A stretch of DNA of 38,173 nucleotides from NCBI GenBank assembly GCA_016872285.1, contig VGZZ01000026.1, forward strand, positions 1-38,173, read 5' to 3'. The stretch's first letter is position 1. Each line of letters starts with the position of its first letter. Positions 3,335 to 36,799 of the stretch are shown here, piece after piece. A program made the translations under genes and the position numbers. Below the pieces are notes generated by a model. The model searched no databases, was not told the DNA's origin, and was given only the letters and a program-made list of their open reading frames with translations. This DNA comes from SAR202 cluster bacterium. GTDB taxonomy: Bacteria > Chloroflexota > Dehalococcoidia > Lucifugimonadales > GCA-2712585.

Positions 3335-3469
3335 GGGTGGCTCCTTATCCAGATGATAGGGAGAGGACAGCCCTCACCCATCCCCTGACCTCCCATCTTA
3401 ATCTTCCCCCTCAAGGGGGGGAAGAGACCAGAAGGAGAGGGCCCGACCCTTCCCACGCTGGTGGGAAGC

Positions 3470-3565
3470 GGCATTGATAAAGGGTCGTAGTGCTAGGGTT
3501 TCACCCTCTCTTCCTTCGACCAGGCTCAGGACGCGTCTGTTCTCCCCCATCAAGGGGGAGAAGGT
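3470..3565. repeat. Interspersed palindromic repeat family A, copy 2, with family C repeat inside
   Basis: Begins GGCATTGATAAAG at 3470, continues with CTAGGGTTTCACCCTC, and ends in a hairpin made of TTCTCCCCC and GGGGGAGAAGG. Where copies 3 and 4 are compact, this copy carries TTCCTTCGACCAGGCTCAGG (3511-3530), a family C repeat. The whole 3335-3663 intergenic region (329 nt) consists of such hairpins; another hairpin with arms CTTCCCCCT/AGGGGGGGAAG lies at about 3402-3424. I see no gene in it. Confidence 0.7.
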
Positions 3566-19089: not shown

Positions 19090-20094
19090 CTACAGGTTGA
19101 ACTGCGGGTCCGTCCAGTTCTCTTCCTTTTGATAGACCTGGATTCGCATGCGCTGATTTTCCACCACCAGCACCTGTCCCTTGTCGGTGACGGCGATGGC
19201 GGTGGGCCGGTTGAAGCGCCACTCCTGCTGGACGTTTTTCACCAGCAGCCGCGCCCGCTTGTAGTCCGGGTTGGCGTCTATGGACTGCTGCGCCCACTTG
19301 GACAGCTTCTCGGCGTCGCCGATGAAGGTGGTGAGGTGGGCGCCGGTGGAATCGAAGACTTCGACGGTGTTCTTCCACCAGTTGGCGACGTAAATATCGC
19401 CGTCCTTGTCCACGGTGACGTCAGATGGGAATTTGAGATCGCCCTTGCCTTCGCCAGGGGCGCCGATGGTGGCGAGGTGTTTGCCGTCGGCGGTGAATTT
19501 TTGGATGCGGTGGTTATGCCAGTCGGCGACGTAAACGTCGCCCTTGGCGTCGATGTCGATGCCCCAGGGCCGGTTGAACTGGCCTTCCGACTGCCCCTCG
19601 GATCCCCACGCCTGAAGGGACTTCCCCTCCTTAGTGAACTTTTGCACTCGATGGTTAAGATTCTCGGTGACGAGGAGGTTGTCGTCGGCGTCAAAGACCA
19701 GGCCGGTGGGGCCGTTTAACTGGCCTTTCTTGCTGCCATAAGTGCCCCACTTGCCCAAGAACTTGCCGCCCTTATCGAAGATGCTGATACGCTGCAACCA
19801 CTCGTCGGCGACGTAAACGTTGCCCTGCCTGTCGATGGCGCAGGCGGTGGGCCAGATGAACTGACCGTCGCCCTGGCCGTAGCTGCCAAACTCGCCGATG
19901 AACTCCTCATCGATGGTCTGGATGCTGACGCGCTGGCAGGGCATGTACTCGTCGCCGCGGCTGACCACATATATGTGGCCGTTGGGCGCCAGGGCAATGT
20001 CCATGGGGTGCCGGAACCCGGGGCCGGACGATGCGTTGCGGCCCAGGGTGTGGCTGTAGTTGAAAACTCGGCCTTTGACCATTACTGTTTGCAT
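19090..20094 (-). CDS. NHL-repeat beta-propeller protein of DUF1800-NHL module 1
   Basis: A 334-aa propeller starting MQTVMVKGRVFNYSHTLGRN. Blades include ACAIDRQGNVYVADEWLQRISIFDKGGKFLGKWG, GLVFDADDNLLVTENLNHRVQKFTKEGKSLQAWG, GIDIDAKGDVYVADWHNHRIQKFTADGKHLATIG and DVTVDKDGDIYVANWWKNTVEVFDSTG. It ends in WTDPQFNL. The protein at 21853-22857 has the same length and aligns throughout, so the two are duplicates. No signal peptide. ATG start with AGGAG seven bases upstream. A DUF1800 gene lies upstream on the same strand, separated by a family B repeat. Confidence 0.9.
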   Translation of the reverse strand: MQTVMVKGRVFNYSHTLGRNASSGPGFRHPMDIALAPNGHIYVVSRGDEYMPCQRVSIQTIDEEFIGEFGSYGQGDGQFIWPTACAIDRQGNVYVADEWLQRISIFDKGGKFLGKWGTYGSKKGQLNGPTGLVFDADDNLLVTENLNHRVQKFTKEGKSLQAWGSEGQSEGQFNRPWGIDIDAKGDVYVADWHNHRIQKFTADGKHLATIGAPGEGKGDLKFPSDVTVDKDGDIYVANWWKNTVEVFDSTGAHLTTFIGDAEKLSKWAQQSIDANPDYKRARLLVKNVQQEWRFNRPTAIAVTDKGQVLVVENQRMRIQVYQKEENWTDPQFNL

Positions 20095-20138
20095 ATTTCT
20101 ACTCCTAATGTGTCAATCCGCTTTGGGACGTCTTTCTA

Positions 20139-20229
20139 TTCGGGATACCATCCCCTGACCCCTTTCCCGACTGCATCGGGACTGAGTACAGCCTGCTGGA
20201 AGGGGAAGGGGGAGAACCAGATAGAGCCT
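20139..20229. repeat. Interspersed palindromic repeat family B, copy 2, with 27-nt insert
   Basis: Same outline as 9233-9361 (TTCGGGATACCATCCCCTGA ... GGAAGGGGAA ... GGGAGAACCAGAT), but the first hairpin is split after CCCCTT by 27 nt (20165-20191) that contain CCCGA-CTGCA-TCGGG and CTGAGTACAG. Confidence 0.75.
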
Positions 20230-20260
20230 CCACCCTCCCCCAGGGGAAGCCAGAATGCCA

Positions 20261-21679
20261 TTAGCCGAACTGGTACTCGCGGGCGGCGGCGATGAGCTGG
20301 AGGACTTCCTTGACGCGGGTGGCGAAGGCTTCCCGCTCTTTCTCGGTCTTGCCGCGCTTGATGGGGCCGCCGGCCTTGAGGTGCTGGATAAGTTCAGACC
20401 GGGTGCCTTCTTCCAATCGGACGATGCCGAGGAGGTACAGGCAGCTTTCCAATAGCTCCTCGGGCGTGAGGGTATCCTTTGTGGCTAGCCTATCGATGAT
20501 GGTCCTGACGCCGGGGAGGCTGGTGTCGCCCAGGCGGTCGGCGACGAAGTTGATGCGGCGCACCAGGGACCCGCTGTCGATCCACTCCTGGCCGGTGTGC
20601 CACCCTTCGACGCTGGGCGGGTCCAGCAGCGACTGGCCCATATACCCCGGTTCCACGGCGATGCTCATGACATCGGGTTTGGGGTTGCGGTAGTCGCCGA
20701 CCAGACGCATGGTGCTGGTAACAAGCTCGATGGGGCTTTTGACCTTGGCGTACCAGGCCTTCTCGTCTTTGAAGAAGTCCGAGTTGAAGAGGACTCTAAG
20801 GGCTTGCTTAATGTCCCAGTTGGACTCTAGGAGGGTGGAGGCGAGAATGTTGATCGCCACCGAGTCTTTCGGGGGGATATCCAGCCACGACGGCACCTGG
20901 ACTTCATCGGCGACGAAGAAGTTGTACATGTGACGCGCCACGAATCGCGCCGTGGCGGGCTGCTTGCAGATGATGTCGATAATGTCATCGCCGTTAAAGC
21001 GGCCCTTGTGGCCCAGGAAGGTCTTTTCGCCGTCGTCATGGTCCTCGGGCCGGTACTCGAACTCCCAGACAAACCGTGCGTAGGGGTTGCGGGGGAAGCT
21101 GGGGGCGATGGTCCAGCCGGTGAAGGCGCGGGAGGCCTCCTTCACATCCTTCTCGGTGTAGTTGCCCTGGCCCATGGAGAACAACTCCAACAGTTCCCTA
21201 CCCCAGTTCTCGTTAGGGGCGTCCTTGTGGTTCTGGTTGTTGTCCAGCCAGAAGATCATGGCCGGATTTTTGGAGACTTCCGTCAGCAGGGTTTTGTAAT
21301 TGCTGAGGCCGAATTTTCGGAACAGGGCCATCTGCGCCAGCATCTGAACGCAGTGGTCCAGCTTGGAGGCGCCGGTGGCGAAGACGTGGTGCCAGAAGAG
21401 CACCATCTTCTCTTCCAGAGGCCGGGGCGTGTTGATAAGCCGGTACATCCAGTGGCTCTGGCTGTTATAGGGCACGCCGCCGCCGATTTCAAAGCAAGGC
21501 TCGTGGCGGTACATGACGGCTTCGTCGATGGGCGGGATGCCGTGGGCCTCGGGATCAAGAAGCTCCTCCACGGTGGCTTCGTAGCCTTTCTTAGCTCGGG
21601 CCTCGATCTCTTCAATGGTGCCGCCGAAACCGGCGCGTCGCATTAGGTGAGCCATAAGCGCAACATTCTTGTCGGCCAT
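20261..21679 (-). CDS. DUF1800 family protein of module 1
   Basis: A 472-aa protein with the DUF1800 hallmarks: ALMAHLMRRAGFGGTIEEIEA at the start, FWHHVFATG, MIFWLDNNQNHKDAPNENWGRELLELFSMGQGNYTEKDVKEASRAFTGWTI, FLGHKGRFNGDDIIDIICKQPATARFVARHMYNFFVADE, and LLDPPSVEGWHTGQEWID. DUF1800 proteins are usually exported and paired with DUF1501; this one has no signal peptide and is paired with an NHL gene instead. Function unknown. The 23071 gene is a close duplicate of the same length. ATG start with AAAGGAG. Confidence 0.93.
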   Translation of the reverse strand: MADKNVALMAHLMRRAGFGGTIEEIEARAKKGYEATVEELLDPEAHGIPPIDEAVMYRHEPCFEIGGGVPYNSQSHWMYRLINTPRPLEEKMVLFWHHVFATGASKLDHCVQMLAQMALFRKFGLSNYKTLLTEVSKNPAMIFWLDNNQNHKDAPNENWGRELLELFSMGQGNYTEKDVKEASRAFTGWTIAPSFPRNPYARFVWEFEYRPEDHDDGEKTFLGHKGRFNGDDIIDIICKQPATARFVARHMYNFFVADEVQVPSWLDIPPKDSVAINILASTLLESNWDIKQALRVLFNSDFFKDEKAWYAKVKSPIELVTSTMRLVGDYRNPKPDVMSIAVEPGYMGQSLLDPPSVEGWHTGQEWIDSGSLVRRINFVADRLGDTSLPGVRTIIDRLATKDTLTPEELLESCLYLLGIVRLEEGTRSELIQHLKAGGPIKRGKTEKEREAFATRVKEVLQLIAAAREYQFG

Positions 21680-21852: not shown

Positions 21853-22857
21853 CTAGAGGTTAAACTGGATGGACGTCCAGTTGGACTCTTTCTTGTACAC
21901 CTGTATACGGCACCGCAGCGTGTCGGCGACCAGGACGTGGCCCTGGTCGTCAACTAGGACGGCCTGGGGACGATAGAAGCGGTACTCAGGCTCCAGGCTG
22001 CGGACCCGCATCCGGGCCTTCTGAATGTCCGGGCTGGCGTTGACGATGACCTGCGCCCACTTGGACAGCCGCTCCGAGTTGCCGACGAAGCTGGCGAGGG
22101 GCCCACCATAGCTGTCGAAGACCTCCAGCTTGCTGTTCCACCAATCGACTACGTAGATGTCGCCGTCCTTGTCCACGGCCACGTCGGTGGGGTGGTTGAG
22201 GAGGCCGGGGCCTTGGCCGGGGGCGCCGATGACGGCCAGGGGCTTACCCTCGGCGTCGAACTTCTGGATGCGATGGTTCTTCCAGTCGGCGACGTAAACG
22301 TCGCCCCTGGAGTCCACGGTGACGCCCCAGGGCCGATTGAACTGGCCCTGGCCGGCGCCCTGGCTGCCCCAATGGCGGAGGGGCTTGCCTTCGGCGGTGA
22401 ACACCTGGACTCGGTGGGTGTGCTCCTCGGTGACGTAGAGGTTGTCGTGGGCGTCGAAGGCCAGGCCGGAGGGGCCTTGAAGCTGGCCGGGTTTTACGCC
22501 GGGCTTGCCCCAGTGGCCCAACGACTTGCCGTCCCTGTCAAAGATGTTGATACGGTTCAGCCACTCGTCGGCCACATAGACGTTGCCGCGGCTGTCGATG
22601 GCCAGGGCGGAAGGCCACATGAACTGGCCCTTCTCCTCGCCGATGCAGCCGATGTCGGTGATGAACTCCTCGTCCATCGTTAGGACGGAGACGCGCTGGG
22701 AGTTGGTGTACTCGTCGCCGCGATTGAGGACGTAGAGGCGGCGTTCCGAGCCCAAGGCGAGGTCGATGGGGTAGCGAAAGCCGGTACCGGCCTCGCCGTT
22801 GCGGCCGATGGTGTAGTCATAGTTATAGATGCGGCCTTTGGTGATTATAGTTTGCAT
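21853..22857 (-). CDS. NHL-repeat beta-propeller protein of DUF1800-NHL module 2
   Basis: A 334-aa duplicate of the 19090 protein. It starts MQTIITKGRIYNYDYTIGRN and ends WTSIQFNL, with blades ALAIDSRGNVYVADEWLNRINIFDRDGKSLGHWG, GLAFDAHDNLYVTEEHTHRVQVFTAEGKPLRHWG, GVTVDSRGDVYVADWKNHRIQKFDAEGKPLAVIG and DVAVDKDGDIYVVDWWNSKLEVFDSYG. The length is identical to module 1 with no gaps seen in the blade segments. ATG start with AGGTG six bases upstream. No signal peptide. Confidence 0.9.
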   Translation of the reverse strand: MQTIITKGRIYNYDYTIGRNGEAGTGFRYPIDLALGSERRLYVLNRGDEYTNSQRVSVLTMDEEFITDIGCIGEEKGQFMWPSALAIDSRGNVYVADEWLNRINIFDRDGKSLGHWGKPGVKPGQLQGPSGLAFDAHDNLYVTEEHTHRVQVFTAEGKPLRHWGSQGAGQGQFNRPWGVTVDSRGDVYVADWKNHRIQKFDAEGKPLAVIGAPGQGPGLLNHPTDVAVDKDGDIYVVDWWNSKLEVFDSYGGPLASFVGNSERLSKWAQVIVNASPDIQKARMRVRSLEPEYRFYRPQAVLVDDQGHVLVADTLRCRIQVYKKESNWTSIQFNL

Positions 22858-22899
22858 TTTTTACACCTAATCTGTCATTTCACTACAGGACGTTTGTCT

Positions 22900-23037
22900 T
22901 AGCGGTACACCATCCCCTGACCCCTTTCCCGACTGCATCGGGACTGAGTACAGCCTGCTGGAAGGGGAAGAGAAAGATTGCACCAATCCCCCTCTATCTT
23001 CCCCTTTCCTCACGAGGAAAAGGGGGAGTACCAGACG
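22900..23037. repeat. Interspersed palindromic repeat family B, copy 3, with 27-nt insert
   Basis: The same 27-nt insert as copy 2 (22927-22953), followed by a second hairpin CCCCTTTCCT-CACG-AGGAAAAGGGG near 23000-23026 and the tail GGGGGAGTACCAGA. It has the same place between DUF1800 and NHL genes as copy 2, so it was probably duplicated with the module. Confidence 0.75.
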
Positions 23038-23070
23038 AGACTTCCAAACTTCTCCCTTGGGGAAATGTAA

Positions 23071-24489
23071 TTAGCCAAATTGGTACTCGCGGGTGGCAGC
23101 GATAAGCTGGAGGACTTCGCAGACGCGGCTGGCGAAGGCGCGGCGCTCGGCCTCGGTCTTGCCACGATTGGCCGGGCCGGACTGGGAGGCGTGGGAGACC
23201 AGCTCATCGAAGGTGGACTTCTCCACCTGCACGTCGCCCATAAGCTCCAGACAGCCCGCCACCAGCTCCTTGGGCGACAACTCGCCCTTAGACGACAGGC
23301 GGTCGATGATGCGGCGGACGCCGGGCAGGGCGGGGTCGCCGACGCGGTTGGCGACGAAGTTGATGCGCTGGACTAGCGCGCCGGTGTCGATCCACTCCTG
23401 GCCGGTGTGCCAGCCTTCGACGCTGGGCGGGTTCAGCAAAGCCTGGCCCTGGTTTTCGATTTCGACGCCGATGTTGGAGATGCCGGGCTGTGGCGTGGCG
23501 TGCTGGCCGACCAGCTTCAGGGAACTGACTACCAGCTCGGCGGGACTCTTGACCTTGTTATGCCACACCTTCTCGTCCTTAAAAAAGTCCGAGTTGAAGA
23601 GGACTCGCAGCGTGTGCTTGATGTCCCAGCCGGACTCCATGAGGGCTGATGCCAAGATGTTTATAGCCACCGAGTCACGGGGCGGCACGTCCAGCCACGA
23701 CGGCACCTGGACTTCATCGGCGACGAAGAAGTTATACATGTGCCGCGCGATGAACCTGGCAGTGGCCGGCTGCTTGAGGATAATGTCGATGATGTCGTCG
23801 CCGTTAAATCGGCCCTTGTGGCCCAGGAAGGTCTTTTCGCCGTCATCGTGGTCCTCGGCGTGGTACTCGAACTCCCAGGCAAATCGATTGTAGGGGGAGC
23901 GGGGCAGCTTGGCGGAGATGGTCCAGCCGGTGAAGGCGCGGGAGGCCTCTTTCACATCCTTTTCGGTGTAGTTCCCCTGTCCCATGGAGAACAGCTCCAG
24001 CAGTTCCCTACCCCAGTTCTCGTTGGGGGCGTCCTTATGGTTCTGGTTGTTGTCCAGCCAGAAGATCATGGCAGGGTCTTTGGAGACGCGTATGAGAAGG
24101 TCTCGGAAGTTGCCGAGGCCGTGCTGGCGGAACATATCGATCTGGATCTGCATCTGGTTCATACTGTCGATTTTGGCGTTGCCGGTGGCGAAAACGTGAT
24201 GCCAGAAGAGGGCAACTTTTTCTTCCAGGGGCCTGGGGCTGTTGACCATTCGATAGACCCAGTGTCCCTGGCCGACCATGGACACGCCGCCGGGGTTCTG
24301 GAAGCCAGGGTTGTGTCGATATATTAATGCCTCGTCTATGGGGTCGACGCCGTGGGCCTGGGGTTCCAGAAGCTCTTCGACGGTGTCCTCGTACCCTTTC
24401 TTAGCCCGCGCTTCAATCTCTTCGTATGCGGCGCCGAAACCGGCGCGTCGCATCAGATGGGCCATCAACGCGAGATTCTTTTCCGGCAT
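23071..24489 (-). CDS. DUF1800 family protein of module 2
   Basis: A 472-aa duplicate of the 20261 protein, with the same blocks: NLALMAHLMRRAGFGAAYEEIEA, LFWHHVFATG, WLDNNQNHKDAPNENWGREL, FLGHKGRFNGDDIIDIILKQPATARFIARHMYNFFVADEVQVPSWLD and LLNPPSVEGWHTGQEWID. Divergence is greatest at residues about 55-75 and 120-145, which may be where the two differ in partner or ligand. No signal peptide. ATG start with GAGGAGG upstream and a promoter candidate at 24566-24595. Confidence 0.93.
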   Translation of the reverse strand: MPEKNLALMAHLMRRAGFGAAYEEIEARAKKGYEDTVEELLEPQAHGVDPIDEALIYRHNPGFQNPGGVSMVGQGHWVYRMVNSPRPLEEKVALFWHHVFATGNAKIDSMNQMQIQIDMFRQHGLGNFRDLLIRVSKDPAMIFWLDNNQNHKDAPNENWGRELLELFSMGQGNYTEKDVKEASRAFTGWTISAKLPRSPYNRFAWEFEYHAEDHDDGEKTFLGHKGRFNGDDIIDIILKQPATARFIARHMYNFFVADEVQVPSWLDVPPRDSVAINILASALMESGWDIKHTLRVLFNSDFFKDEKVWHNKVKSPAELVVSSLKLVGQHATPQPGISNIGVEIENQGQALLNPPSVEGWHTGQEWIDTGALVQRINFVANRVGDPALPGVRRIIDRLSSKGELSPKELVAGCLELMGDVQVEKSTFDELVSHASQSGPANRGKTEAERRAFASRVCEVLQLIAATREYQFG

Positions 24490-29233: not shown

Positions 29234-29427
29234 GTGAGTAGTCCAAGTCGAGGCTATCCGTATCCACAACTAGACTATTTTAGCCTAGACTAACTTCTGA
29301 CGGAAGGCCGTTGCAGGGACGTAGACCCCGCCTCTCTCCACCCCGACCCCCCCTCCTAGCCTCCCCCTCAAGGTAGCTGGTGCTGGTTATCCCAGTACGT
29401 TTTAGAGATGGGATAGTGATGGCAAGT

Positions 29428-29497
29428 GGCATTGATAAAGTCTCGTGGAACTAGGGTTTCACCCTCATCCTGCGCCTTCCCCCATCAAGGGGGAAGG
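29428..29497. repeat. Interspersed palindromic repeat family A, copy 4 (compact form)
   Basis: GGCATTGATAAAG at 29428, then CTAGGGTTTCACCCTCATCC, then hairpin CCTTCCCCC-ATCAA-GGGGGAAGG. It is the shortest complete copy and the reference for seeing the inserts in copies 1 and 2. Confidence 0.7.
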
Positions 29498-36371: not shown

Positions 36372-36446
36372 AGGGTTTTGGCTTGCTAAGACACCCGCGC
36401 CTGCTATAATTGAACAGGCCGGGCGAAAGCCTGATTTCGTCGGCAT

Positions 36447-36522
36447 GGGCGGTTAGCTCAGTGGTTAGAGCGCCTCGTTCACACCGAGGAGGTCACAGGT
36501 TCAAGTCCTGTATCGCCCACCA
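36447..36522 (+). tRNA. tRNA-Val (anticodon CAC)
   Basis: A 76-nt cloverleaf with acceptor GGGCGGT/ATCGCCC, D arm GCTC...GAGC, anticodon arm CCTCG-TTCACAC-CGAGG, T arm ACAGG-TTCAAGT-CCTGT and encoded CCA. It reads GTG only. Confidence 0.97.
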
Positions 36523-36538
36523 TTTAACAAATTGCGGC

Positions 36539-36612
36539 AGGCGGCTCGCTGTTCGAGCGCTCCGATTACATCGGAGAGGTCATTCCGATCCCCATCGGGA
36601 TGTCGCCTACCA
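36539..36612 (+). tRNA. tRNA-Val(UAC)-like gene with altered D and T arms (possible pseudo-tRNA)
   Basis: 74 nt, 16 nt after tRNA-Val(CAC). Acceptor AGGCGGC (36539-36545) pairs with GTCGCCT (36602-36608), followed by ACCA. The anticodon arm is perfect: CTCCG-ATTACAT-CGGAG with TAC at 36567-36569. The D arm is only GCTCG-CTGTT-CGAGC with no GG or AGCTCAG-like loop, and the T arm is CCGAT-CCCC-ATCGG inside ATTCC/GGGAT, with no TTCRANY loop. Standard scanners may miss or mark it as pseudo. Confidence 0.6.
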
Positions 36613-36624
36613 CAAAAATAGCGG

Positions 36625-36709
36625 GCCGAGGTGGCGGAACGGCAGACGCGCTACGTTCAGGGCGTAGTGTCCAAAAGACGTGTGGGTTCAAATCCCACCC
36701 TCGGCACCA
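36625..36709 (+). tRNA. tRNA-Leu (anticodon CAG)
   Basis: An 85-nt class II tRNA. Acceptor GCCGAGG/CCTCGGC, anticodon arm CTACG-TTCAGGG-CGTAG, long variable arm (TGTCCAAAAGACG), T loop TTCAAAT, encoded CCA. Confidence 0.97.
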
Positions 36710-36722
36710 TCAGTTAGTTCGT

Positions 36723-36799
36723 GCGCTTGTAGCTCAACTGGATAGAGCGCAGCCCTGCGAAGGCTGAGGCTGTGGGTTCAAGTCCCGCCAAGCGCACCA
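36723..36799 (+). tRNA. tRNA-Arg (anticodon GCG)
   Basis: A 77-nt cloverleaf. Acceptor GCGCTTG/CAAGCGC, anticodon arm CAGCC-CTGCGAA-GGCTG, T arm GTGGG-TTCAAGT-CCCGC, encoded CCA. Anticodon GCG instead of the usual bacterial ACG. Confidence 0.93.

Follow-up and report, generated by a model that had tools for sequence, protein, structure and literature searches.

A tRNA-Val-derived element with palindromic arms, probably a pseudo-tRNA, in a tRNA cluster of a SAR202 cluster bacterium

Pseudo-tRNAs and tRNA fragments of prokaryotes are derived from tRNAs, lie at tRNA loci, are redundant with a canonical gene and have lost core motifs (PMC9897764), and the element described here has the same features. 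It occupies positions 36539-36612 on the forward strand of a 38,173-nt stretch of DNA (the window) from a SAR202 cluster bacterium. Unusual cores are also found in working tRNAs. For example, tRNA-Pyl of Methanosarcina barkeri has, like the element, a 5-nt D-loop without G18G19 and a T-loop without TPsiC (PMC7609411). Template switching creates RNA hairpins, as documented for rRNA and microRNA genes, and the resulting mutations resemble the element in the near-perfect short-loop stems within an RNA gene and in the two-sided stem changes (PMC8794818). Finally, REP elements share with it the presence of short palindromes outside protein genes (PMC3733652).

The element retains several parts of a canonical bacterial elongator tRNA. 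The acceptor stem (AGGCGGC/GTCGCCT; 5' strand 36539-36545, 3' strand 36602-36608) has seven pairs including one G.T wobble and is followed by the discriminator A and an encoded CCA. The anticodon arm CTCCG-ATTACAT-CGGAG (36560-36576), the core of which (TCCGATTACATCGG) is also present at other places in the genome, has a 5-bp stem and a 7-nt loop with TAC, and the variable loop (AGGTC) is normal. The coordinates, the 7-bp acceptor stem, the TAC anticodon arm and the CCA are thus as a preliminary description of this DNA had given them, and the absence of both invariant loop motifs was also borne out, since neither GG (G18G19) in the D region nor TTCRANY in the T region is present. For the two altered arms, the preliminary description holds in part. 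The palindrome GCTCG-CTGTT-CGAGC, which had been taken as the D arm, is present at 36544-36558, but it overlaps acceptor positions 6-7, so that both helices cannot form in full, and the D arm of the cloverleaf is only GCT-GTTCG-AGC (36548-36558), which at 11 nt is about 5-6 nt short. The T-region palindrome, given earlier as CCGAT-CCCC-ATCGG, does have the CCCC loop but is larger (ATTCCGAT-CCCC-ATCGGGAT, 36582-36601), with eight pairs including one T.G and 20 nt instead of the usual 17. The length of 74 nt, said to be unchanged, is correct as a number, but canonical tRNA-Val genes here have 76-77 nt with CCA, and the difference comes from the loss in the D arm and the gain in the T arm.

Short-loop hairpins make up three arms of the element, and their summed pairs (21) exceed the maximum of 17 among the 46 canonical tRNAs of the genome. 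In the minimum free energy fold (-33.4 kcal/mol, z -3.25), the D palindrome is predicted to pair and the inner acceptor pairs are sacrificed. The energy per base (-0.45, against a mean of -0.42 for the 46 canonical tRNAs) lies inside their range. Within the anticodon loop, A32-T38 and T33-A37 can pair, which would extend the arm to a hairpin of 7 bp closed by TAC.

Judged by its sequence, the element is a clear relative of tRNA-Val. Its global similarity to tRNA-Val(CAC) was 54.0, the best among the 46 tRNAs, and none of 1,000 shuffles reached this score (mean 26.2, sd 4.7). When a covariance model (R1) was built from the element alone, the element itself scored 109 bits and canonical-length loci across the order reached at most 49 bits, and the nine best of these loci outside its own genome were all canonical tRNA-Val genes. 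Standard tools did not recognize it. On the locus, ARAGORN and the Rfam tRNA model reported only the three neighbouring tRNAs, and RF00005, which the preliminary description had proposed to run there, left the element unmatched at E<=10 both in a short stretch and in the whole-genome search; other Rfam families gave only chance-level matches. An assembly error may also produce such an odd sequence, but the flanking tRNAs are intact. Three further sub-threshold tRNA-like matches of 14-20.5 bits were observed in the genome (C11:4704-4772, C72:6707-6754 and C7:17976-18053), two of them near canonical tRNA-Pro and tRNA-Met genes; these are probable tRNA relics.

The position of the element suggests how it arose. 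As had been described, it lies in a cluster with three ordinary tRNAs, namely tRNA-Val(CAC) (36447-36522), tRNA-Leu(CAG) (36625-36709) and tRNA-Arg(GCG) (36723-36799), all on the forward strand. The spacer after tRNA-Val(CAC) (AACAAATTGCGG, 36523-36538) is similar to that after the element (AAAAATAGCGG, 36613-36624), with a score that was reached by 15 of 20,000 shuffles. Because tRNA-Val(CAC) is also the best match, a tandem duplication of this likely parent together with its spacer is the simplest origin. When the locus was compared in relatives, as the preliminary description had suggested, the Val(CAC)-Leu(CAG)-Arg(GCG) cluster was intact and free of the element in five same-family genomes of other genera (G001, G003, G004, G005 and G006), and their Val-Leu gap was 5-18 nt, compared with 102 nt in the window. 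A search with R1 in 247 genomes of the order, in which the relatives all belong to other genera, returned no second element-like copy, although the filters used can lose weak matches. Met-Val(CAC)-Leu-Arg-Val(UAC) is the arrangement in several further members of the order, so the UAC gene normally follows Arg and does not lie at the site of the element. Elsewhere in the window, 19090-21679 and 21853-24489 form a tandem segmental duplication of two pairs of ORFs (334 aa and 472 aa) with a spacing of about 2.8 kb and 65-84% DNA identity.

The genome itself (G000; 2.61 Mb, 83 contigs, 95.6% complete, 46 canonical tRNAs) bears on whether the element is needed. The preliminary description had named the search for a second tRNA-Val(UAC) beforehand as the test for a dead copy, and a canonical gene was found at C45:5858-5934. 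The Val tRNAs of the genome are therefore CAC (in the window), GAC (C9:32763) and UAC (C45:5858), and GTA codons are presumably read by the last of these. This rules out the element as the sole UAC gene, on which the suggestion of a functional but odd tRNA had depended, and makes a decayed duplicate most likely rather than a new kind of tRNA. The alternative suggestion of a pseudo-tRNA gained support from the five same-family genomes, the search of the 247 genomes and the missing RF00005 match. We therefore consider it likely that the element is a lineage-specific pseudo-tRNA, that is, a decayed copy of tRNA-Val(CAC) and its spacer which arose in tandem and no longer decodes. A tandem duplication inside the Val-Leu-Arg cluster would have provided a spare copy, and this copy then lost the D-loop and T-loop motifs that are needed for the L-shape and decoding, probably losing decoding with them. 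Its hairpin arms became short-loop palindromes, most likely through foldback or template-switch repair, and this may have followed a period in which the tRNA fold was under selection. A promoter-like site upstream of the cluster (TTGCTA-16-TATAAT, forward strand, 36383-36410, 10/12 consensus match) suggests that the element is co-transcribed with tRNA-Val(CAC) and would be discarded during the processing of the neighbouring tRNAs. No intrinsic terminator was found on the forward strand of the locus.

The retained acceptor stem, discriminator A, UAC anticodon, AGGTC, CCA and stem pairs make past selection on the RNA, or even a present function, possible. The element could be a functional tRNA-Val(UAC), or a non-decoding tRNA-like RNA, with a compact core that has no D-loop/T-loop contact, and tRNA-Pyl and many mitochondrial tRNAs do work without the GG and TPsiC motifs (PMC7609411). 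We regard this as improbable, since a canonical tRNA-Val(UAC) is present, no copy was found in the relatives searched, the anticodon loop is predicted to be closed by pairing, and A1-T72 and A32/T38 are unseen in the functional tRNA-Val genes here. There is an equally small chance that a transcribed tRNA-like RNA is maintained because of its hairpins and CCA end and not for decoding, or that a bacterial tRNA-Val manages without D-loop/T-loop contact. A functional element would be unexpected, as a bacterial tRNA that lacks the elbow contact.

How the arms of the probable pseudo-tRNA changed can be read in part from its stems. Relative to tRNA-Val(CAC), four of the 12 pairs in the acceptor and anticodon stems have changed on both sides, whereas none has changed on one side only and none is broken. 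When eight substitutions were placed at random, all pairs survived in 45 of 200,000 trials with Val(CAC) as the parent, and in 12 and 6 with Val(GAC) and Val(UAC), respectively; the statistic depends on the assumed parent. Plain neutral decay would seldom leave all pairs intact, which weighs against the pseudo-tRNA reading. In addition, the first pair of the element is A1-T72, compared with G1-C72 in all 31 distinct canonical tRNA-Val sequences, and A32/T38 of its anticodon loop occurs in none of the 31; pairing was thus kept while other features of tRNA-Val disappeared. The palindromic arms most likely stem from foldback or template-switch repair at quasi-palindromes. Kept pairing could also result if the tRNA was once under selection, or if a non-decoding RNA was selected; the sequence alone could fit any of these courses. 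An insertion of micro-palindromes, as proposed earlier, may account for the T arm. It does not fit the D arm, which has lost sequence on balance, or the acceptor and anticodon stems, which differ from those of tRNA-Val(CAC) by two-sided substitutions. As a foldback source in the flanks, a single inverted match of 11 nt (AGCGCTCCGAT) was found within the 600 nt upstream; with this length it neither identifies a template nor proves a switch.

A second pseudo-tRNA sequence in the genome points to another possible origin. At C45:7957 (GAGCGCTCCGATGAATCGGAGAGGTCAGGGGTTCGAGACCC...; C45:7946-8015, or L178 2247-2316), lies the 3' half of a tRNA-Val pseudogene, at a distance of about 2 kb from the canonical tRNA-Val(UAC) in the downstream direction. 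It has in common with the element the palindromic anticodon arm (CTCCGATGAATCGGAG) and AGGTCA, and its T arm is normal. The two share GAGCGCTCCGAT..ATCGGAGAGGTCA (90% over 31 nt), which a simple duplication of tRNA-Val(CAC) leaves unexplained. Both could be relics of a separate, lost tRNA-Val or of the att site of an integrated element, and prokaryotes often carry tRNA fragments that integrative elements have left behind (PMC9897764). We consider this origin unlikely, although it deserves some weight: the best whole-length match is the adjacent tRNA-Val(CAC), the spacers are alike, a search of 250 genomes of the order that allowed up to three mismatches found no canonical tRNA with the anticodon arm of the element, and no integrase was seen by inspection of the nearby ORFs. 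The C45 sequence may be a second remnant of a lost tRNA-Val, or its anticodon arm may be convergent, which is thinkable because TCCGAT..ATCGG palindromes recur in the genome. Horizontal acquisition of a tRNA with this anticodon arm was also rejected, as the arm had no exact match in viral contigs and three in genome contigs, none with a tRNA gene. BLAST matches of the element in relatives were pieces of 15-33 nt, and those inspected had neither tRNA context nor a repeat in common. Matches to phage tRNA clusters covered at most 27% of the query, lay at tRNA genes where annotated, and in no case spanned the element as a unit.

The recurrence of such palindromes raises the question of insertion. 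REP-like palindromes of the TCCGAT..ATCGG kind might have been inserted into a tRNA-Val copy, since this motif is contained in both the anticodon-arm and the T-arm palindromes. TCCGATN{2,6}ATCGG had 31 forward matches in the genome, many in a longer dispersed repeat, against one for the reversed control, but this control is non-palindromic and overstates the excess, and TCCGAT ranked eighth among hexamers for inverted pairs in a 399-kb sample. Moreover, the match is confined to a core of 14-15 nt, which here is flanked by tRNA-Val sequence and not by the flanks of the dispersed repeat. Insertion is therefore very improbable. As for the repeats themselves, a dispersed REP- or MITE-like repeat with the core CAGGACGGTCCGATTGCATCGGACTCCGCGATATATGCTTAAAGGTAGCGGAGC has many copies throughout the genome (for example, L156 at 1501, L162 at 1501 and L190 at 142), and TCCGATnnATCGGA is also the core of terminator-like hairpins (C3:70463, C39:21482 and C61:7594). 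A further dispersed repeat, of 50 nt (GGCATTGATAAAG...CTAGGGTTTCACCCTC), occurs three times in the window, at 704-753, 3459-3508 and 29417-29466, with 66% and 84% identity to the reference copy.

In conclusion, a pseudo-tRNA is in itself ordinary, yet the element is a tidy example of an RNA gene copy that would have lost its function while its stems grew more palindromic, a change predicted by template-switch repair and not by simple decay. The template-switch cases in rRNA and microRNA genes were shown with ancestor sequences (PMC8794818), whereas single events in the element are putative. Unlike REP elements (PMC3733652), it is a tRNA-Val-derived unit that has no flanks in common with the dispersed repeats of the genome. 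tRNA-Pyl is a conserved, charged suppressor tRNA (PMC7609411), whereas the element is unconserved among the genomes compared, carries a CCCC tetraloop on an 8-bp T stem and has the anticodon UAC, not the CUA of tRNA-Pyl. By its redundancy and non-conservation, the element groups with the prokaryotic pseudo-tRNAs, and it is like tRNA-Pyl and mitochondrial tRNAs only in the missing elbow motifs. Most of the known pseudo-tRNAs are truncated att-site remnants (PMC9897764), in contrast to the element, which is of full length and has CCA and fully paired stems.
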